Shown: one piece after another, positions 1 through 18,884 of the stretch
How the letters are laid out: the number at the start of each line of letters is the position of its first letter
Numbering within the stretch: position 1 is the first letter of the stretch
Virus record (IMG/VR): IMGVR_UViG_3300025030_000482
Coordinates: 1-20,009 of that record
Length of the DNA stretch: 20,009 nt
From: a virus
Strand: one strand, 5' to 3'
The notes under the pieces: generated by a model
The model's input: only the letters and a program-made list of their open reading frames with translations
Databases searched by the model: none
What the model was told of the DNA's origin: nothing
Made by a program: the position numbers and the translations under genes

Positions 1-113
1 CGCTTGCCCGCCCGCAGGGCTTGAATCGGCGGAAAGGACCCGTATTTTAATGAGAGACAAAAATCCACCGACCCGCCACCCGCGCGGGTTTGCAGACGCC
101 CTGCCCGACTCAT
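1..113 (-). CDS. Start of an unidentified leftward gene (truncated by window edge)
   Basis: An ATG at 113-111 overlaps the stop of the upstream minor-tail-Z-like gene in an ATGA arrangement. The frame then stays open for about 37 codons to the window edge. The visible N-terminus begins MSRAGRLQTRAGGGSVDF and has no motif I recognise. The overlap matches the translational-coupling style of many genes in this window, which is the main reason to believe it. Only the first few dozen residues are visible, so function cannot be assigned; a late structural or packaging gene would fit the position, but that is inference. Confidence 0.4.
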   Translation of the reverse strand, partial: MSRAGRLQTRAGGGSVDFCLSLKYGSFPPIQALRAGK

Positions 114-817
114 CGCCCGCCTCGGTTCAGGTAGAACTCCAGCTCGTGCATGAATGTGCGATCCAGATCCGCGTCGATCTTAGCGACTATGGCGGCGTTT
201 ACATCCACCTGGTCAAACATGGATGCAATGGATATGGCGCTCTTAACGCGGATAGGGTAGCGGTCCTTGCCAGTGCGGATCAGGATGCCAACATGACCAG
301 ACCAAAAGGTTTGCATGAATGCGCTCTTGAGTTGTGTCCGCCGGCCCTTGATTACTTCAGTCTCTACGCCTTGGAACGCAGCCGAACGCTTCCTCGTCGT
401 CACGCCCTTGCGGGTGATAACCTTATTCCTGTTCGTTTGTTTTGCCCCAAAATACGACAGGGAAACAGACTGGCCACCGATCGTCAACGTGGCCTGGAGA
501 TCTTTCACTCGCCCCTCGAACAGATCCAGGCGCGCATCAAGTACTGCCTTCGGTACGTTGTAGCGCTTGCGGATCTCACTGGAAACCAGAGTCTTGACGG
601 ACTTCAGCACCTTGTTCATGGCACTGACCATAGCCTTGCGGATATCGCCTATCGTCTCTTCGGTGGCCTGTCCCATAGCTTCGGCAAAACCGGTACAGGA
701 AAACGACAACGTTTTTGACGTATCTTCACGACCCTCGAAACCGATAGGGTGATAAGCTCCATGGCCGCGAGTGCCGCTGATGAATATCCCATGTGGGTTG
801 TAACTGTTTCTTGCCAT
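110..817 (-). CDS. Prophage minor tail protein Z-like (tail completion) protein
   Basis: This 235-residue protein looks like the lambda gpZ / minor tail protein Z family, which acts at the head-proximal end of the tail during completion. Seen in the sequence: a helical N-terminal part with AMNKVLKSVKTLVSSEIRKR, a middle segment with SLSYFGAKQ, and a C-terminal signature SGHVGILIRTGKDRYPIRVK, matching the family pattern of a glycine-histidine turn, an arginine-rich strand and an R-x-PI motif. The ATG start has a strong ribosome site (AGGAGG, 823-830). It follows the 10-bp repeat array, whose outermost copies end right beside the ribosome site. Its position is odd: Z normally lies just upstream of the tail tube gene, but here it follows the replication module, far from the tail tube as drawn. 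Family assignment is by eye from motifs. Confidence 0.68.
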   Translation of the reverse strand: MARNSYNPHGIFISGTRGHGAYHPIGFEGREDTSKTLSFSCTGFAEAMGQATEETIGDIRKAMVSAMNKVLKSVKTLVSSEIRKRYNVPKAVLDARLDLFEGRVKDLQATLTIGGQSVSLSYFGAKQTNRNKVITRKGVTTRKRSAAFQGVETEVIKGRRTQLKSAFMQTFWSGHVGILIRTGKDRYPIRVKSAISIASMFDQVDVNAAIVAKIDADLDRTFMHELEFYLNRGGR

Positions 818-832
818 TGCCTTTTCCTCCTG
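813..832 (-). promoter_or_regulatory. Ribosome site plus start, duplicated at 4817-4836
   Basis: The 20 bases covering the Shine-Dalgarno sequence (AGGAGGAAAAGGCA on the minus strand) and the ATG of the Z-like gene are repeated exactly at 4817-4836, where they precede an in-frame internal ATG of another gene. The bases on either side differ. This supports both as real start sites and suggests copying of a translation-initiation cassette within the phage genome. Confidence 0.6.
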
Positions 833-1128
833 TCGTAGATTGTCGGAGATTGTCGGAGATGCTTTTTAGCTATCTCCGACAGAATAAACCTTATAAAACA
901 AATACTTTCTTTTTTGTCGGAGATGTCGGAGATAAAAACAACAATATAAAAAGCAATTCGGTTGTCGGTGTAGTGGAGATAATTCACGATTGCGTGCGCG
1001 CATGTACGTATTATGTTCAAACTATCTCCGACATCTCCGACAACCTCTATAAGTCTATGAAAGAACTAACTAAATCCTGTCGGAGATGCTTGTTTTTATC
1101 TCCGACACATCCCCGACAATCTCCGACA
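831..1128. repeat. Array of 10-bp TGTCGGAGAT repeats in both orientations; candidate replication origin
   Basis: Perfect copies of TGTCGGAGAT start at 841, 851, 915, 924 and 1078 on the plus strand. Its reverse complement ATCTCCGACA starts at 872, 1024, 1033, 1098 and 1119. Near-perfect copies lie at 831 (TGTCGTAGAT) and 1109 (ATCCCCGACA), and a degenerate one near 963. The pair at 915-933 and the pair at 1024-1042 each share one base and mirror each other around an interval of about 90 bp. The 880-960 stretch is AT-rich. The array lies immediately 3' of a primase/helicase gene. Phage P4 alpha protein, also a primase/helicase, binds decamer repeats in both orientations at ori and crr, so a replication origin is the leading explanation. 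Operator sites controlling the adjacent Z-like gene are the alternative. No convincing gene lies in 818-1159. Confidence 0.72.
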
Positions 1129-1159: not shown

Positions 1160-3763
1160 TTAATACCCACTGGTAGCGGCGCCCGAAGCGAGGGGGGCGG
1201 GGGAATCAAGGCCGACGTCGGCGGGATCGGACAGCGACAGCCCCACCCATGCATCCTCGCGTGAGCTGGTGAGCTTGCCCTTGCGGACGGAGGGCATGAC
1301 ACGCTTGAACTCCCTGCCGAAGTGGATGCGGTTGTGAGGCGTAAAATTCCCCTCCCCACACCAAGAGCGATACGCCTTATAAAGTGCGGCTACGCCGACG
1401 CGATAGGTGTCACTATCGTGACACAGTAGCCGCTCTTGGCAGAAGACACGCACCGGATCGTTGGTGGCCTTGTACTCGCACAATGTCGCCTCCATATCAT
1501 CCGACCAGGTAAACTCCCCCAGCTCATACAAGCGCTCCAGCCCAGCCAGTGACCAGGCGAATATACCGTCCAGCTCGGCCAGCAGCTTGTCGATCAGGTT
1601 GAGGTCTTTGCCGGACGCCACGGTCAGAAACTGGCGCTTGAACTGGATCGGCAGCAGCCGCCTCCAGTAGCCATCCGAATTGTCCAACACCTTCGGGAAG
1701 CGGTTGGAGGCAAACACGATCTTGCCGTCGAAGCGGAACTCAAAGAAATCCTTATGCTTGAAGCAGGCCGAGACCAGCGAGCCGTCGATCAGCTTCTTGA
1801 ACCACTCCGAGGTAAACGCCCCGGAATCGAACTCCGCAGAAACGTTCAGACGCTTGCCAAACAGCGAGGCCCTGTAGAACTCCTTCTCCAGATCCTTCAG
1901 GCCCACAGCAGAGCAATTCTGCTCACCCAACAACGCCGTCAGCACATCCAACACGATGGACTTGCCGTCCGCCCCAGGGCCGAACATGAACAGACACTTC
2001 TGGAAGCGGGTCGATGACACCAGGCAGTAACCAAAGAACTCCTGCAGCGCCATGATCGTGCCGGGATCCTGTACCGTCTCGCCCAGGAACTGCAACCAGC
2101 GATCGCAACGCGGATCACCCTGGGGATTGAACTCCACCCCCAGCATGAAATTAAAGAATTCGTCTTTGGTATGCGGCCGGGTCTCGCCCGTCTCCAGATC
2201 AAACAGGCAGTTCTTCAGGCAGATCCAGCGCTTTGAATCGTTCATCTTGCGCCCATGCTCCAGGCTGGACAAGATCTTGACCATCGTGGCCGCGTCCGAG
2301 GAGCGCGCCGTGGACGCCTCCAGTTCCAGCATCTGCAGCGCCTTTTTCTGGATGTGCACGATATTGTGCAACTCCCAGTAACGCTCATTCCAACGGTACA
2401 TCAGACCCGAGTCGGTATCCGATACCACGTCCAGATCCTTCAGTATGGCCTGGGCCAGCAGCGCAGGCTTGAAGGCATTGCCATTGCGGCCGCCAAAGAA
2501 GCGCTTGGGCGTCAACGGCGGTGCCTTCTCCGGAGGAGAAAACGTCCCGGCCGTCGCCAGCAGGTCTTTTAGATCGGCCAGACAGCGGCCGCGCTTGACA
2601 AAAAAGTCGGTCAGGTCCTCGCCATGGTTGGCAGGCCACAGCGCACCCTCGGACTGGACGAATTCGGAAAACTTCTGTTTCGGATCGTCCAGGGGATGCG
2701 GCGTACCTTCATACATGGATGCTGGCCAGCGGATGAAACGGAAAAGTTTTGACACCGGAGCCAGAGCCAGGCCAACCTTCTCGGTACCGGCCAACCCGAC
2801 CTTGTCGGCGTCATAGCAGTTGATGACTTCACACCCATCGAAATGCTCGGTCCATTCATCCTTCCAGATCCGCGCCCCGGTGGTCTTGGTGACCGCATTC
2901 AGCCCCTGGGAGAGTGCGCAGATGAGATCCGGTTCGCCCTCAACCTGCCACAATGGCCCAGGCCCCCACTGGGAGGGGGGAGGGAGGAGGCGCGCCTCGC
3001 CCCGACCGGCACAGGAACAAATCTTCTCATCCGCCTCGGTACGATCCCAGGGGAGATAAAAACGGACATTGCGCAGATCACCAGCATCATCGATCACAGG
3101 AATGGCAACACGGCGCTGGCCGAACGCCATCCGACACTTGAACAGCTTGCCGCGTTCCTTTGTGTGGATGTACTGGCGCAGCTGTAGCTGTTCCATCACC
3201 GCACGAGACCAACCCCGCTCCTTGACCAACCGATCCAACCACTCATCAGGGAGGGGCGGGAGGGCGTTAAACTGTTTCCAGGGGATAGGATCAAGCACGG
3301 CCTCGGCTTTCGGCTCGACATCGGCGGGTTTTGGTTTTGATTCATCAAGTTCAAACGGGGGAGGATCGGCGGGTTTTGGTTTTGATTCATCAAGTTCAAA
3401 CGGGGGAGGATCGGCGGGTTTTGGTTTGGGAGTTGCTTTCTTGGCTGGTTTTGGAGCGGAGGCGGAGTCCTGATCTTTCTCGATGCCGAATTGCTGACAG
3501 AAGGCTTTGAACCCGCCCATGTCACGCTTCATGCCCTGGTTGTAGCACCACAGATCAATCAGGTCGCCCTTGAAACCGCAGGCCATGCAATTGCCCAGGT
3601 CTTTCCTGTAATTATAGCTGTAGGAGGGTTTGTTCTTATCGTCATGGGCCGGGCACAGGCCGTGCAGCTCGCCCTTGTTGGCCATGACTTCCTTGACAAC
3701 GAACAGGCCGCGCGCAATCGTGGCGCGCTGTTCCTCAGTCATGTGCTCTTCACAAAATCTCAA
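1160..3763 (-). CDS. Phage/plasmid primase-helicase (P4 alpha / D5 type)
   Basis: This 867-residue replication protein has, in order: a CHC2-like zinc site (C37-x2-H40, C59-x2-C62); a Pro/Lys linker with a tandem repeat (about 114-148); a Toprim-like primase region (E275 onward and YDAD around 317-320); and a superfamily 3 helicase with Walker A GPGADGKS (595-602), Walker B-like NVSAEFD (640-646), motif C FASNRFP with sensor Asn 687, and an RR pair at 701-702. It should make RNA primers and unwind DNA to start phage replication. The first possible start is TTG at 3763-3761, with AGGAG five bases upstream; an ATG at 3742 gives a protein seven residues shorter. It is the last gene of the leftward early operon and is followed by the 10-bp repeat array, as expected for an initiator lying next to its origin. 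Confidence 0.88.
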   Translation of the reverse strand: MRFCEEHMTEEQRATIARGLFVVKEVMANKGELHGLCPAHDDKNKPSYSYNYRKDLGNCMACGFKGDLIDLWCYNQGMKRDMGGFKAFCQQFGIEKDQDSASAPKPAKKATPKPKPADPPPFELDESKPKPADPPPFELDESKPKPADVEPKAEAVLDPIPWKQFNALPPLPDEWLDRLVKERGWSRAVMEQLQLRQYIHTKERGKLFKCRMAFGQRRVAIPVIDDAGDLRNVRFYLPWDRTEADEKICSCAGRGEARLLPPPSQWGPGPLWQVEGEPDLICALSQGLNAVTKTTGARIWKDEWTEHFDGCEVINCYDADKVGLAGTEKVGLALAPVSKLFRFIRWPASMYEGTPHPLDDPKQKFSEFVQSEGALWPANHGEDLTDFFVKRGRCLADLKDLLATAGTFSPPEKAPPLTPKRFFGGRNGNAFKPALLAQAILKDLDVVSDTDSGLMYRWNERYWELHNIVHIQKKALQMLELEASTARSSDAATMVKILSSLEHGRKMNDSKRWICLKNCLFDLETGETRPHTKDEFFNFMLGVEFNPQGDPRCDRWLQFLGETVQDPGTIMALQEFFGYCLVSSTRFQKCLFMFGPGADGKSIVLDVLTALLGEQNCSAVGLKDLEKEFYRASLFGKRLNVSAEFDSGAFTSEWFKKLIDGSLVSACFKHKDFFEFRFDGKIVFASNRFPKVLDNSDGYWRRLLPIQFKRQFLTVASGKDLNLIDKLLAELDGIFAWSLAGLERLYELGEFTWSDDMEATLCEYKATNDPVRVFCQERLLCHDSDTYRVGVAALYKAYRSWCGEGNFTPHNRIHFGREFKRVMPSVRKGKLTSSREDAWVGLSLSDPADVGLDSPAPLASGAATSGY
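3321..3427 (-). repeat. In-frame 45-bp tandem repeat in the primase-helicase linker
   Basis: A 45-bp unit occurs at 3321-3365 and 3366-3410 without a visible mismatch, and its first 17 bases recur at 3411-3427. It encodes two copies of a 15-residue unit (KPKPADPPPFELDES) plus a partial third. The unit joins the zinc domain to the primase core and looks like a flexible, expandable linker. The copies are near identical at the DNA level, so the duplication is recent. Confidence 0.9.
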
Positions 3764-4151: not shown

Positions 4152-4420
4152 GCCTGCACCCCCTTTGCATCCACTCCGTAACGCTCCGACAGCACCATAA
4201 TGGCCTTGATGCAGCATGACGCCACCTGAGCCAGTTCACGAACCACACCATGTTCACCATGCAGATCTCCAACAGCCTCAGCTCCACCCGCCTCCACCAT
4301 CAGCTCGTGGATGATTACCGGCATCATTTGTTCCAGGGTGTAGTCATGCCAGTCGCCATACTTCACGATCGACGCTTCGCGCTCCTCCAGAATCATATCC
4401 AGCGCATCGAGCAGGGTCAT
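4148..4420 (-). CDS. Small helical protein, possibly MazG-like, 90 residues
   Basis: The gene is bounded by ATGA overlaps on both sides (4417-4420 and 4148-4151), which fixes its start and shows coupling with its neighbours. It is acidic and all-helical, with IIHELMVEAGGAEAVGD, then an HGEHG turn, then RELAQVASCCIKAIMVLSER. This resembles small phage proteins of the all-alpha NTP pyrophosphohydrolase type (MazG-like), in which Glu/Asp residues on two helices bind magnesium. The likeness is weak and the full metal-binding motif is not clear. If right, it would act on nucleotides during phage replication. Confidence 0.55.
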   Translation of the reverse strand: MTLLDALDMILEEREASIVKYGDWHDYTLEQMMPVIIHELMVEAGGAEAVGDLHGEHGVVRELAQVASCCIKAIMVLSERYGVDAKGVQA

Positions 4421-4989
4421 ACCGACAAACCTCTAACGTTTTCGACAAAACGGGCGGCCATAACAATGGCTGCGCCGGGCTTGAGGCCGGACAGCTTGAC
4501 CAGACAGGAGCGCTTGACATCATCAAACGCATCATCCAGGGCCAGGCACAGCAACTCGTCAACGCTCAGCGCCACCCTCCGGCCACTGGCGTCAGTTACC
4601 GAAGCAATTGATCCATGATCCAGCACCTCTTCAACCTGGGCCTTGGCAGCCTCTTCGACGTGTTTAATCACCTTTAACGCACCAGCAATCGGGCTGGAAC
4701 CCCTATGCGACGGCTCACCAGCCTCGCGCTTGGCCTGGGTGAAATGCGCCTTGCACATCCCATCGGTTTTATGCTGTTCTGTTTTTGTGCAACCCGTGAC
4801 TTTGCATTTTTTAACGGCCATTGCCTTTTCCTCCTGGACTACTATTGTTTTTGCGGCCTGCCAGGCCTCGCAGCCCCGGCAACTCATAGATGCGGATTTT
4901 CTATATGAGATGCACTTGCCGTCACCAGGCACAATATGCAGACTCAATTCACAACCATATTCATTTGGTATCGCGGGTGGATAGGTCAT
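4417..4989 (-). CDS. Two-part cysteine-rich protein with internal in-frame start
   Basis: The ATG at 4989 lies just after the stop of the 56-residue upstream gene and opens a 190-residue frame. Residues 1-56 carry Cys13, Cys26 and a CRGC motif (Cys37/Cys40). A second ATG at 4821 (Met57) has a much stronger ribosome site and starts a 134-residue product beginning MAVKKCKVTGC. That part has a zinc-finger-like motif (Cys62, Cys67, Cys79, His82 in the long form), a type common at the start of phage proteins of unknown function. The rest is helical, ending ARFVENVRGLSV. Either one long protein is made, or two nested products. Function is unknown; nucleic-acid or protein binding through zinc is a guess. 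Confidence 0.6.
   Translation of the reverse strand: MTYPPAIPNEYGCELSLHIVPGDGKCISYRKSASMSCRGCEAWQAAKTIVVQEEKAMAVKKCKVTGCTKTEQHKTDGMCKAHFTQAKREAGEPSHRGSSPIAGALKVIKHVEEAAKAQVEEVLDHGSIASVTDASGRRVALSVDELLCLALDDAFDDVKRSCLVKLSGLKPGAAIVMAARFVENVRGLSV
4817..4836 (-). promoter_or_regulatory. Strong internal ribosome site inside an open frame
   Basis: AGGAGGAAAAGGCA precedes an ATG (4821-4819) that is in frame with the gene already being read from 4989. The same 20 bases drive the Z-like gene at 813-832. This is a good reason to expect a separate 134-residue product. Confidence 0.6.
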
Positions 4990-8708: not shown

Positions 8709-10189
8709 AGGCGACTACCGCTGCCATCTACATCCGTAAATCGCGCGAGGAAAAAGACAAACCCTCCCACCGCCTCACCGTCCAACGTGAACAACTCCCC
8801 GCCCATGCCCGCGCTCAGGGATGGACTCCCGCGATCTATGACGACGGCCACGCCTCTGCCGCCAGGGGCAAAACGGAATCCCTTCCGGAACGTGCCCGGC
8901 TCGAGCGCGACATCCGCGCCGGCAAAATCAATGTCATCCTCTGCATCGAACTCTCCCGACTCTCTCGTGACGACACCATGCAGGATTACATCGCCTGGCT
9001 AACCCTCTGCGCCGATCACCGCGTCAAACTGGCCACCCCCAGCCGCAGCCTTGACCCGGCCCAACATAGCGACTGGATGCTGCTGCTGATGGAAGGCGGG
9101 TTTTCTTCAGTCGAAATGAAGGTGCTGCAATCCAGAATGAAGGAAGGACGGGACGAAGCCTACAGGGCAGGGAAGTTCCTCGGAGGCGGTTGCCCCCCAC
9201 CATATATTTACGACAAGGCACAGGGACGGCCGGTGGTAGATCCGGAACTATTGCAACAGATGACCCAGATCTGGACCATGGCCGAGACCATGAGCGCGCG
9301 CAGCATCGCCAGCGAACTCGGCCGGGCCGAATCATTCATAATCCGCAGCCTCTCCGACGATCGGCTGTTGTTCTACCAGGCAAAGCGGGTGGATCAGCAG
9401 ACAGGCGAGCTGATACCATGCGACTGGCAGCCTGTGATGACTCAGGAACAGGCCAAACAGATCAAGGTTGCCCGCAGTACACGCCACAACAAGACCAAGG
9501 GTGTTAAAAAACATCCCGCCGCCTTGCTTTCCAACCTCGGAATCATGTTTTGCGGGTACTGCGGACGGACCATTAAAACATGGTACAACACTAAAGAAAG
9601 GGCCGATGGAAGCCGTCTTAACTACTATGGCTGCGCAAGCAAGGACACCCGTTTAAAATGCGATCGCGCCCGGCTCATCGCCCAAGACGTCATTGATTTT
9701 TATGCGACCACAAACATCTTCAACACTCTTGAGAACCTGGAAGAATTAAAGGGAATATGGGAACAACAACAAGGCAGGGTTAACAGCGGGGAAGAACTCA
9801 AAAGGATCAACGAGGAAAAGAAGAAAAACGAGGAAAAGAAAAAGAGATTAATCACCGCCATCACGAATGGAATAATGAATCTGGCCGACGCCAAAGGCGC
9901 CATGGATGAAATCAAGGCAAAAATCGAAACCCTTCAGCACCGGGCGGACCAGATTGCCGATATCATCAAGAGCCCACCCAACTGGGATGCAATTGACCTG
10001 ACTAGGGAAGATTATAACCAACTCGACAGAATAAATCGAAGAGAGTTTATCCGGACGATCATTACGCGCATCGACATCTACAACATGCACGCCATAATCA
10101 CCTACACATTCCCCCGCAAACCAGACGGCACCGCCACCGCAAAAATCAACCTGCCTGCAACACACCGTGGAAAAAGGATCGACAAATAG
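8705..10189 (+). CDS. Large serine recombinase (phage integrase)
   Basis: This 494-residue protein has all large serine integrase parts: a catalytic domain with AIYIRKSREE (nucleophile Ser13, Arg11), ELSRLSRD (82-89) and the later SVEMKVLQSRMKEGRDEA helix; a recombinase domain around GKFLGGGCPPPYIYD (157-170); a zinc ribbon with Cys283, Cys286, Cys310 and Cys319; and a charged coiled coil (about 342-420). It should integrate the phage by cutting attP and attB through a Ser-DNA link. ATG 8705 is chosen because it overlaps the previous stop (ATGA) and starts at the right point for the family; an ATG at 8672 would add 11 unlikely residues. The gene ends directly before the terminator and half-tRNA region, the likely attP. 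Confidence 0.93.
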   Translation: MKATTAAIYIRKSREEKDKPSHRLTVQREQLPAHARAQGWTPAIYDDGHASAARGKTESLPERARLERDIRAGKINVILCIELSRLSRDDTMQDYIAWLTLCADHRVKLATPSRSLDPAQHSDWMLLLMEGGFSSVEMKVLQSRMKEGRDEAYRAGKFLGGGCPPPYIYDKAQGRPVVDPELLQQMTQIWTMAETMSARSIASELGRAESFIIRSLSDDRLLFYQAKRVDQQTGELIPCDWQPVMTQEQAKQIKVARSTRHNKTKGVKKHPAALLSNLGIMFCGYCGRTIKTWYNTKERADGSRLNYYGCASKDTRLKCDRARLIAQDVIDFYATTNIFNTLENLEELKGIWEQQQGRVNSGEELKRINEEKKKNEEKKKRLITAITNGIMNLADAKGAMDEIKAKIETLQHRADQIADIIKSPPNWDAIDLTREDYNQLDRINRREFIRTIITRIDIYNMHAIITYTFPRKPDGTATAKINLPATHRGKRIDK

Positions 10190-10422: not shown

Positions 10423-12870
10423 TCAGCTTTCCAACCCCTTCAGGAACGCGAAAATTGTGTCTGCTATTTGGTAATATCCTTCAGTTGCAGGGTGAACTCC
10501 ATTGCTTTGCCGCGCGACGGTTACCGATGTGCGGCTATTAGCTGGCGCAGGGGAGTATCTCGGCATGTTGTTAACTGTGTCGAGATTACTGTTTATCGGT
10601 ACGACATATATTCCGGATCCGGTTCTCCCGCCAAATTGATCAATGAGATGCCTCCACAGAATCATCAAATTGCGCCTGAATCTCCAGCGGGTTTGCCCGC
10701 ACAGATAGGAAACGCCCCACCCATCCTGAGAATATGAGGGGGGGCTTGTCAGCGCGATGCCGATTTTCATGGCGGCGTTATAGGTATGCATTGACGTAAT
10801 CATGCTTTCATAAATTCCGGCCATGCTGGCGGCGACAGCCAGTGCTCCGGCATCGGTTGCGGCGCTGAATATATCGTTTATCCCCAGGTTTATGATTGTC
10901 ACGTCGCAGCCAGCAAAACCGTTGGTCGAGATGAACTGCGGGAAATTAAATACTCCTGAGAATACAAATGCCGATGTTACGTCGGTAAAATGTTGCTGCG
11001 CTGTCCAACCGCTCACCCCCTCATGCAGGTCTATGCCCGTGCCCCTGGTTCCGATGCAGGTGATATTCATGGCGTCAGCCGAAAACAGATTGTTGAGTTC
11101 GATAGTCGTGGTATTAGCAGCTGTAGTCGAGTCGCCAATTACTAACAGACGGCGGGTTAACCCTGTACCCGCAGCAGCAGACGCCACGATTAGACTGGCC
11201 TGCGTCGCGACTTTTAGTGCCGTTTGCGCGCCTTTGGCAAAGACGCTGATATCCAGGGTCGTTGTGCCGCTAGCCTCAGACACATAGGTCCACCGCTCCG
11301 ACTGTTGACGACCGAGCGTACAGGTGACATCCCAGTTGAACTCATTTGCATCCAGCGAGATCAGATTTTCAAAATAAACATTCATCTCGTGGCCAACAAC
11401 CGCGTAAACGGCCGGGGCCAGGACAATATCTATTGATTCCAGCATTTGCAGGGACAGAAAGCTGTCGAGGGTGTCATACGAAACAGAGCCGTCAGCTGGC
11501 GGAAGCCCGCCCGGCAGGGACGAGATGCCAATGACAGCGGCTTCTGAAGAGGACAGGCCGGTTGCATTAAGCAATTCGATGCTGATGCAGTAATCCGGGC
11601 CATTGTCCGCCCAGACCGTGGTCTTGTAATATGAGTTGCCCTGATATATGCCGCTGGTGATCACGCCGATGCATTCCGCCACCGAGCACGCGGCGCCATT
11701 GATATCGGTGGCCGTATACCCGACAAAGTACGTCGTCCCAAAATCGGCGTTAGACAGAGATGTGAGCGCCAATGTGGCCGGATCTCTCAGGGCGATGCTT
11801 AGTCCCGTCTGCTCCGCAGATGACGGGTCAATATAGCTGGTGCCTACAGCCAGCAGCGTCCCGGTAGGGCCTATATCTCTGATCTCGATATGGATAGCCT
11901 TCCATGCGCCTGTGTCAGTATATGTAATATTCGGTATCCTGGCCAAATTGACTGTCCAGGCTCCTATATTGTTGTATTTAGAGCCCCAGCCGGTAAAGGG
12001 CAAAACCTTGGCCAGGGTGTTTTGGTGCGAAGTTTCCGCGACGACCGGAGTTTCACCGTTGTGCGTTATTTGGGTCACAACTGTGTAACTGAGTGTACTT
12101 AAAAATTCATCGGACGCGGCGGCCGAGGTCTCCAAATTATTGACATCTGCGAGTAGAGCCGCAATGTGATCGACGGCATCCTCCAAATTGATGTACGCTT
12201 CAAATGCCGTAGCGGATGTGCCTTGTTCGACCTGCAGCGTTGATTTCCAGACGGTACCCACGGCAAATGTGGAAAATCGGAGATAAGCGGCACCGGCCGG
12301 TGCCAGTACTGTGATATTCGAACCGCTGTTCAATTCCCCCGAAACGAAAACATAACTGGTGTTGTACCACGCGACCCGGTTGAGGTTTGAAAACGTGTAA
12401 TATTGCCCCGCTGTAACGGCTATATATCCCGAGGCGTTGTATGTTGCGTTTATATCCAGAGTGCCGGAGAGCTGATTAATATAATATCCATAAGTTATTG
12501 ATGCGGAATAAAAATCAAATAGGTTTTTCCCGACAACATTTCTGGCCTTGGCCGCGACTGCCTGTTCCACGACGGCTACCCGGTCGAAACTGCTCTGCAC
12601 CCACGTTCCGGCACCGCTGGCGCCTGATTTCCGGTACGTGCCGTTATTGGCGGGTGTTGTGTCCGAGGTGACATATGCAACCGCTTTATCCGGGAGTGAG
12701 AGGTCGGCTAGCAAATTAGCCTTGGTCGCATATCCGGCAACCCCGGACGCCTGCCCGGTCAGGGCCGCATCCACGCCGTTGGCCAGCGTTGTGAAGTTGC
12801 TGTCGATCTGTGTTTTTACCAGCTTTTGGGTCTGGTTCCCGCGCAGATTCATTTGCGATAGAATTGTCAT
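10423..12870 (-). CDS. Tail fibre/receptor-binding protein with C-terminal SGNH/GDSL esterase
   Basis: This 815-residue protein begins with a short helical tail-attachment region (SQMNLRGNQTQKLVKTQ), followed by beta-rich, Ala/Thr/Gly-rich domains to about 560. The C-terminus (about 573-813) is an SGNH hydrolase: VIGDSTT (nucleophile Ser581), EGVSGWT (block II), NLGIND (Asn665) and SNGVHP (His793). The position three before the catalytic His, normally Asp, is Asn790. Such domains on phage tails remove acetyl or other ester groups from surface polysaccharides during adsorption. The start at 12870 has AAGGAGAG. The gene is last in the tail operon, the normal place for host-recognition proteins. 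Confidence 0.82.
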   Translation of the reverse strand: MTILSQMNLRGNQTQKLVKTQIDSNFTTLANGVDAALTGQASGVAGYATKANLLADLSLPDKAVAYVTSDTTPANNGTYRKSGASGAGTWVQSSFDRVAVVEQAVAAKARNVVGKNLFDFYSASITYGYYINQLSGTLDINATYNASGYIAVTAGQYYTFSNLNRVAWYNTSYVFVSGELNSGSNITVLAPAGAAYLRFSTFAVGTVWKSTLQVEQGTSATAFEAYINLEDAVDHIAALLADVNNLETSAAASDEFLSTLSYTVVTQITHNGETPVVAETSHQNTLAKVLPFTGWGSKYNNIGAWTVNLARIPNITYTDTGAWKAIHIEIRDIGPTGTLLAVGTSYIDPSSAEQTGLSIALRDPATLALTSLSNADFGTTYFVGYTATDINGAACSVAECIGVITSGIYQGNSYYKTTVWADNGPDYCISIELLNATGLSSSEAAVIGISSLPGGLPPADGSVSYDTLDSFLSLQMLESIDIVLAPAVYAVVGHEMNVYFENLISLDANEFNWDVTCTLGRQQSERWTYVSEASGTTTLDISVFAKGAQTALKVATQASLIVASAAAGTGLTRRLLVIGDSTTAANTTTIELNNLFSADAMNITCIGTRGTGIDLHEGVSGWTAQQHFTDVTSAFVFSGVFNFPQFISTNGFAGCDVTIINLGINDIFSAATDAGALAVAASMAGIYESMITSMHTYNAAMKIGIALTSPPSYSQDGWGVSYLCGQTRWRFRRNLMILWRHLIDQFGGRTGSGIYVVPINSNLDTVNNMPRYSPAPANSRTSVTVARQSNGVHPATEGYYQIADTIFAFLKGLES

Positions 12871-18225: not shown

Positions 18226-18884
18226 CTATTCCTCGGGGGTTTGCATCTCCTGGTGGATGATCGCCAGAAAGTCCAGTTCGTCAATGGTTACATCATGCAG
18301 CCGGAATATCGTGTCCGCGTTAGTTAATCCTCGCAATGCCTGACAATGATCATATATGCGCCGGTAACGATCGTGTCCGGGGGGCGGCGCAGGGATCGGG
18401 CATCCTTCAGCAGTTTTGCAGGCGGGCAGCTGGGCGTCCAGTTGCTCGGCCTCCCGGCAGGCCGCGCAGGACATATCTCTGTAGTCCTGGCGGGCTTGCA
18501 GGTATTCGGTCAGCTTTTTTTTTGCTGTTCCCGTTCGGCATCCAGCATAGCGGCTAATGAAAGGGGCTTGCCAAACAGCGCCACCCGGAACTCGGTCACC
18601 TTGTCGGAGATGTAATTGATGTTTTCCGGCGTGCACAGATAGGGCGCATCACCATCAGCAATGCCTTCCCAGGCGACCGTAACCCGGGCGGCCAGTTCAT
18701 GGCGGAATAGATCTTCGTCCAGGGTACCAACCAGTTTGCCGTCTTTTTCTTCTTTGATTTTGCAGGATTCACGCAGGGCGTCATATTCGTCCTGTGATAT
18801 GTGCGTGAACTGCGCCCGGAATTCGTCCACAATCGGGACCCAGGCCCGTGTCCCACCGGTTTTTATTTTTGATACGTCGAGCAT
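18226..18884 (-). CDS. Tail assembly chaperone, -1 frameshift extended form (219 residues)
   Basis: Reading from 18884, a -1 shift on the A run (minus strand, 18523-18515) joins 123 residues of the short form to 96 residues of the overlapping frame (joint ...REQQKK/KLTEYLQARQD), ending at the TAG 18228-18226 just before the tape measure gene. The extension is charged, with CAACREAEQLDAQLP, and should contact the tape measure or tail tube, like lambda gpGT. The extra frame has no credible start of its own: the only upstream ATG-like codon lies deep in the short gene and lacks a ribosome site. That makes frameshifting the best explanation. Confidence 0.75.
18510..18884 (-). CDS. Tail assembly chaperone, short form (lambda gpG-like role)
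   Basis: A 124-residue protein starting MLDVSKIKTGGTRAWVPIVD, with AGGAGA eight bases before ATG 18884. It sits between the tail tube and tape measure genes, the fixed place of tail-assembly chaperones in long-tailed phages. It is helical in its second half (HELAARVTVAWEGIADGD, SDKVTEFRVALFGKPLSL). The frame stops (TGA, 18512-18510) just after the nine-base A run where the -1 shift occurs. No sequence motif alone would identify it; order, size and the overlapping second frame are the evidence. Confidence 0.8.
   Translation of the reverse strand: MLDVSKIKTGGTRAWVPIVDEFRAQFTHISQDEYDALRESCKIKEEKDGKLVGTLDEDLFRHELAARVTVAWEGIADGDAPYLCTPENINYISDKVTEFRVALFGKPLSLAAMLDAEREQQKKS
18515..18524 (-). other. 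Slippery site for programmed -1 frameshift
   Basis: Minus strand, zero frame: CAA AAA AAA AGC TGA. The heptamer A-AAA-AAA lets both tRNA-Lys slip back one base, after which reading continues AAG CTG ACC. The zero-frame stop is only four bases after the slip codons. This is the classic bacterial A-run site. I did not find an obvious strong downstream stem, which A-rich sites in bacteria do not always need. Confidence 0.8.

Follow-up and report, generated by a model that had tools for sequence, protein, structure and literature searches.

Does a cluster of short repeats beside a phage primase/helicase gene mark a replication origin, and which part of the protein would read it? This question is raised by positions 831 to 1128 of the virus record IMGVR_UViG_3300025030_000482 (G000), which we analysed over its complete length of 20,009 bases (the window). 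Here, copies of the decamer TGTCGGAGAT lie in both orientations between a D5/P4-alpha-type primase/helicase gene and a Z-like neck gene. Very probably, this array is the replication origin of a temperate phage, and the adjacent primase/helicase recognises the decamer by its C-terminal winged helix.

Twelve decamers form a complete dyad behind the primase/helicase gene

1160-3763, minus strand: D5/P4-alpha-type DNA primase/helicase, putative initiator; 867 residues, TTG start; PHROG 864 DNA primase (2e-82); Pfam D5_N, DUF5906, Pox_D5 and a weak CHC2 zinc finger
1024-1128, minus strand: primase-proximal half-site; sites 1119-, 1109- (one mismatch), 1098-, 1078+, 1033- and 1024-, reading > > > < > > on the minus strand
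831-933, plus strand: Z-proximal half-site, the mirror image; sites 831+ (one mismatch), 841+, 851+, 872-, 915+ and 924+

The array holds ten perfect copies of TGTCGGAGAT, at 841, 851, 915, 924 and 1078 on the plus strand and at 872, 1024, 1033, 1098 and 1119 on the minus strand. With the one-mismatch sites at 831 (+) and 1109 (-), there are twelve sites, six per orientation. The first-pass annotation of this DNA had reported about a dozen decamers, the perfect ones five each way, and one-base-overlapping pairs mirrored around about 90 bp. Both points hold: the pairs 915/924 and 1024/1033 mirror each other across 934-1023, exactly 90 bp. The mirroring is, however, not limited to these inner pairs, as all twelve sites form one exact orientation dyad around the spacer, > > > < > > followed by < < > < < <. 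Counted past the primase/helicase stop in gene direction, the first six sites start at 32, 42 (one mismatch), 53, 73, 118 and 127, and the other six at 227, 236, 279, 300, 310 and 320 (one mismatch).

Allowing up to two mismatches, we find 43 matches to TGTCGGAGAT in the window vs 15.6 ± 4.2 in dinucleotide shuffles, none of 100 shuffles reaching 43. The genome-wide count that had been suggested yields a single perfect copy outside the array, at 18602 within a tail open reading frame (ORF), so that the decamer cannot be called common in the phage record; we take this copy as chance. No second cluster is present in the window or in the 39-kb virus contig of a relative (L009). In the two metagenome-assembled genomes (MAGs) with close relatives, clustering of the word is confined to the equivalent array (11 of 27 copies within 290 bases in G002, 9 of 22 in G001). 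Isolated overlapping pairs of 19 bp in six viral contigs (L018-L023) were rejected as arrays; no such primase lies nearby.

Each half of the dyad has the layout of the P4 ori

The first-pass annotation proposed a P4-like but sequence-distinct origin, and this part of the proposal is strongly supported both by position and by layout. In the GenBank record of P4 (NC_001609), crr spans 4291-4590 and begins 46 bases past the alpha stop (4636), and the outermost site of the window lies 32 bases past its stop. The P4 ori (9086-9809) contains six type-1 iterons, at 9310-, 9320-, 9331-, 9353+, 9396- and 9406-. Their spacings of 10, 11, 22, 43 and 10 compare with 10, 11, 20, 45 and 9 in the window halves, the fourth site being inverted in both.

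We scored the P4 layout, as taken from GenBank and without knowledge of the word, on a scale with a maximum of 40, using shuffled DNA and 1000 random layouts as controls. Each window half scored 39, the Z-proximal half with the mirrored layout. Scores ranged from 33 to 40 in all 13 close loci, that is, the window and its closest primase/helicase relatives with downstream sequence, and shuffled DNA gave at most 29. In 11 of the 13 loci, the window among them, none of the 1000 random layouts reached the observed score. Summed over the 13 loci, the P4 layout gave 485 vs 340.7 ± 14.0 for random layouts (maximum 401). The P4 helicase itself is only about 25% identical to the window helicase.

These results bear on whether the array could be an accessory element like crr, bound by the initiator while replication starts elsewhere, as in P4 with its separate ori and crr. 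The array does occupy the position of crr. But it holds two complete halves of the P4 ori type, and neither the window fragment nor the 39-kb relative contig has a second array to serve as the start. We therefore regard an accessory role alone as improbable. Of the P4 plan, the array thus has the ori-like halves, but not ori and crr as two separated elements.

Arrays stand behind the helicase genes of all close relatives

Of the 12 relatives among the close loci, L013 lies in a Geobacteraceae MAG, L014 in a deltaproteobacterial MAG and L009 on the 39-kb virus contig; the others (L026-L033, L054, L055) belong to genomes of the same class or phylum. L030 was left out as its contig ends before the helicase stop. 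A two-way array is present within about 700 bases past the helicase gene in all 13 loci, built from about seven different words. Thus, related primases lacking any array, which had been named as the finding to look for against the proposal, were not found among the close relatives with downstream sequence. The array starts at most about 150 bases from the helicase stop (in L028 inside the ORF end), except in L054 (+385) and L055 (+368).

The window word recurs in L013 and L014 in the same 12-site layout. In L009 and L026 this layout is built from the word TGTCCGGC, a few of the sites being decayed or missing. The words elsewhere are TGTCCGGG (L027, L029), a TGTCCGGC-like word (L028, L031), TGCACCAT (L032), a GTACCC word (L033), GGTGGTCC (L054) and GTGTCAGG (L055). 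Across close relatives the geometry of each half is nearly fixed and the gap between the halves varies by more than 25 bases, which fits two separate assemblies.

Among distant helicases, the common minimal form is a pair, 75-100 bases and a mirrored pair (L010, L044, L058, L059, L060, L065). A significant array of an exact 7-mer was detected in the first 370 bases of 27 of 59 non-redundant helicase loci, including relatives of about 25-33% (p ≤ 0.01 vs shuffles; 0.6 loci expected). At +376 to +491 past another distant helicase (L042), there are ten same-direction tandem copies of GTCCGGTA with a 12-base period; this is not the two-way layout and was rejected.

The word follows the helicase half of the protein

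Comparing the protein part by part, we find that residues 1-415 of the window, L013, L014, L009 and L026 are 60-80% alike (window to L009 74-77%, to L026 69-76%). From residue 430 onward, domain-wise identities separate two types, window/L013/L014 and L009/L026. L013 and L014 are 61-99% identical to the window up to residue 760 and 60-80% in the winged helix. Between L009 and L026 the helicase/winged-helix part is 89-96% identical, and both have 42-44% (helicase) and 26-27% (winged helix) identity to the window. The split in words follows these types, the first having the window word and the second TGTCCGGC. This is a natural swap, in which the helicase/winged-helix half and the word are inherited together and the primase half is not. 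In L029 and L031 (genomes G067 and G129), primase and helicase halves are in separate ORFs, and the array stands behind the helicase ORF. Taken together, the tracking of the word and this placement point to the C-terminal half as the reader of the word.

The swap also bears on the neighbour on the other side of the array.

110-817, minus strand: Z-like/neck gene; phrog_27 (8e-29); Pfam Minor_tail_Z (4e-13)

On the minus strand, the gene order is primase/helicase, array, Z-like gene. The outermost site directly adjoins the GGAGG (826-830) of the Z-like gene, as the first-pass annotation had noticed in suggesting that initiator binding might control this gene. The decamers could thus be operators for control of the Z-like or late genes, bound by a transcription regulator or by the initiator in the role of repressor; the array does lie between an early and a late gene. 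The word, however, tracks the helicase half and not the Z-like protein, whose identity to the window is 70% in L009 with its other word, 64% in L014, 48% in L026 and 39% in L013 with the same word. In L014 another ORF intervenes between array and Z-like gene, most other arrays have no detectable Z-like neighbour, and two six-site halves arranged as a dyad with the geometry of P4 ori would be atypical for an operator. Control of the Z-like gene thus finds no support as the main role, and an operator array is improbable. Two-way repeat arrays occur at partition sites too, but a centromere-like site (a parS array of a phage-plasmid) is very improbable here, as the window proteins that we scanned gave no ParA/ParB-like family match and include a serine integrase, and as the word co-varies with the helicase half.

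The spacer contains an A-rich stretch and an alternating CG tract

934-1023: spacer between the inner pairs; 90 bp, 62% A+T vs 46% A+T in the record
931-958: A-rich stretch inside the Z-proximal pair; 77% A+T in 30 bases; candidate unwinding element
991-1011: alternating purine-pyrimidine tract TGCGTGCGCGCATGTACGTAT; at a near-constant place in relatives

The spacer is probably the melting or loading region, and an A-rich stretch comparable to that of the window adjoins a pair of the P4 ori. A CG-rich alternating purine-pyrimidine tract is a further feature of the spacer in all 13 close loci (enrichment of CG/GC steps, p ≤ 0.006 each vs shuffles). It begins about 12-28 bases inside the primase-proximal pair in 12 of the 13 (in the window, ATACGTACATGCGCGCACGCA). 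Neither P4 nor any of the eleven distant minimal arrays that we examined has the tract. Its role may lie in Z-DNA, in easily deformed steps, or in a site for a host factor or for priming. The spacer segment TGTCGGTGTAGTGGAGAT (962-979) resembles a decayed overlapping decamer pair and was not seen in L013 or L014.

The putative initiator has a P4-type domain plan

1484-2476, minus strand: superfamily 3 (SF3) helicase part, residues 430-760, with Walker A motif GPGADGKS; AlphaFold2 model of residues 430-867 at a predicted local distance difference test score (pLDDT) of 84
1229-1468, minus strand: C-terminal winged helix, residues about 766-845, putative origin-binding domain; AlphaFold2 model of residues 760-867; matches Pfam Pox_D5

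The protein has the domain plan of a P4-type replicon: a fused primase, an SF3/D5 helicase and a C-terminal winged-helix domain predicted to bind the origin. Searching the PDB with the model of residues 430-867, we obtained the SaPI5 primase-helicase 7ola as the top fold match (E 5e-20, TM score 0.67). For the model of residues 760-867, the best Foldseek match was the DNA-binding domain of RFX1 (1dp7; E 1e-4, TMt 0.79). RFX domains were among its top 50 fold matches and the P4 origin-binding domain (1KA8) was not; the P4 origin-binding domain and the Rfx1 domain are members of one winged-helix family (PMC10516667). The Pfam Pox_D5 match is common to the window C-terminus and the P4 alpha origin-binding domain, and with the longer helicase region hhalign aligned the window protein to P4 with a probability of 99%. 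A Toprim domain was found by Pfam in P4 alpha and not in the window protein.

The primase/helicase ORF begins with TTG in the window (3763), L009 (5001), L013 (2379) and L014 (6001), with a conserved internal ATG at codon 8; the shared TTG is either a conserved weak start or a misplaced one. In the window, a tandem duplication PKPADPPPFELDES lies in the zinc-finger/primase linker (about 3325-3424, minus strand; residues about 114-147) and is absent in relatives.

A proposed two-ring model of the origin and the points against it

We propose that six decamers with starts at about 0, 10, 21, 41-42, 86 and 95 and orientations > > > < > > would constitute one half-origin, with a second, inverted half-origin about 90 bp away. 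Presumably one helicase hexamer would assemble per half, and the two rings would meet across the spacer. The A+T-rich part of the spacer would then melt, and the rings would load on single strands and depart in opposite directions, with the primase half laying primers.

Several observations weigh against reading the array as the origin. GC skew, which had been suggested as a check, shows no switch at the array, either in the window or in the whole 39-kb L009 contig. About half of the distant helicase loci have no significant exact-word array in the first 370 bases, so the rule is not universal, and no array was seen in the tailed phages Rowa, KLEA5, 9NA, Vibrio 1.027.O and Albright, which have distant D5 primases. 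With the window C-terminus alone, hhalign against the P4 origin-binding domain gave a probability of 3%, which is not significant. Finally, we had noticed the likeness of the P4 layout to the window before choosing that layout for the test, and the random-layout control therefore weighs more than the shuffles.

Read as an origin, the repeat cluster becomes a testable model with a constant geometry and a variable word, in which helicase and word have been exchanged together in nature while the rest of the protein stayed similar. It has long been asked how self-loading SF3/D5 helicases bring two rings onto duplex DNA, and a 6 + 6 dyad with a variable spacer makes concrete predictions on this point. 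The array search also offers a simple route to origins beside D5-type helicase genes. A broader generalisation, which we hold tentatively and at somewhat less than even chances, is that the origins of D5-type initiators obey one fixed grammar, with a six-site half that stays rigid while word and winged helix drift or swap together. Tailed-phage origins would then be an inverted dimer with one half per ring, the P4 ori would be one half, and in the window lineage an undescribed CG element of the spacer would be needed for opening or loading.

Comparison with known origins

Like the window protein, P4 alpha is a fused primase/SF3 helicase with a C-terminal Pox_D5/winged-helix end; P4 also shares the six iterons at ori (> > > < [43] > >) and a crr directly 3' of the alpha gene. 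P4 differs in having its own word, GGTGAACA, and in lacking the alternating CG tract. In P4, ori (a single half) lies about 4.7 kb from crr, in which a five-site version is present as two direct copies; in the window, two inverted halves are merged.

P4 is a sound model for the layout, but it is not the sole one: the origins of phage-inducible chromosomal islands (PICIs) and Staphylococcus aureus pathogenicity islands (SaPIs), with their pri-rep-ori organisation, are an equally close published model (PMC6092414, PMC7581432). These origins by definition directly follow the 3' end of the initiator gene and have two sets of iterons flanking an AT-rich region, and a plasmid is maintained in E. coli DH5alpha by a PICI rep-ori segment (PMC6092414). 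SaPI5 PriRep, the best structural match of the window protein, adds to the likeness, which concerns position and general plan and not the exact iteron spacing. The window family differs in residing in a tailed temperate phage; instead of the gene content of a helper-dependent satellite, we find tail proteins and a serine integrase in the window and head and terminase genes in L009. Because this satellite content and the separate ori/crr pair of P4 are lacking, we set the array family apart from both PICIs and P4. Tailed temperate phages would thus share an origin organisation that had been described as a peculiarity of PICIs (PMC6092414).

In Streptococcus thermophilus phage Sfi21, the non-coding region after a D5-type primase (ori/PER), annotated in its record as origin of replication, likewise has a pair, a spacer and a mirrored pair. 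It acts as replication origin and as a copy-number-dependent phage-resistance element (PMC6356513). Sfi21 has the minimal form with 8-bp repeats and four clear sites, and differs in having neither the 12-site dyad nor the CG tract. Plasmid pRN1 has an essential site just 3' of orf904, which encodes a primase/SF3 helicase/winged-helix protein (PMC4234260), but this origin is a 100-nt stem-loop without iterons.

Position and general plan of the array are therefore already known from PICIs/SaPIs, P4 crr, Sfi21 and pRN1. New are a dyad of 12 sites made of two P4-ori-like halves and carried by a tailed temperate phage, the co-swap of helicase and word, and the CG tract within the spacer. In the open literature searched, we did not find the half-site likeness to P4 ori, the co-swap or the spacer tract described.

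Phage genes in the window and its relatives

The window encodes a serine integrase, two helix-turn-helix regulators, a tape measure and other tail proteins. The first-pass annotation spoke of a full tailed phage; the 20-kb record is itself a phage fragment without head genes, and L009, encoding terminase, portal, head protease, capsid and integrase, is the relative that suggests a complete one.

Just past the Z-like gene, L009 (8710-10248), L013 (6414-7589) and L014 (9929-11581) have a DnaN-like sliding clamp gene with all three beta-clamp Pfam domains; the window stops short of the equivalent point. The L009 contig also carries a reverse transcriptase gene (L099:16511-17677, at about 36.5-37.7 kb; phrog_1423, RVT_1) near the terminase genes, possibly part of a diversity-generating retroelement. 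In the window, a large virion protein (10423-12870, minus strand) has a GDSL-like lipase/acylhydrolase domain at its C-terminus and is possibly a tail fibre enzyme.
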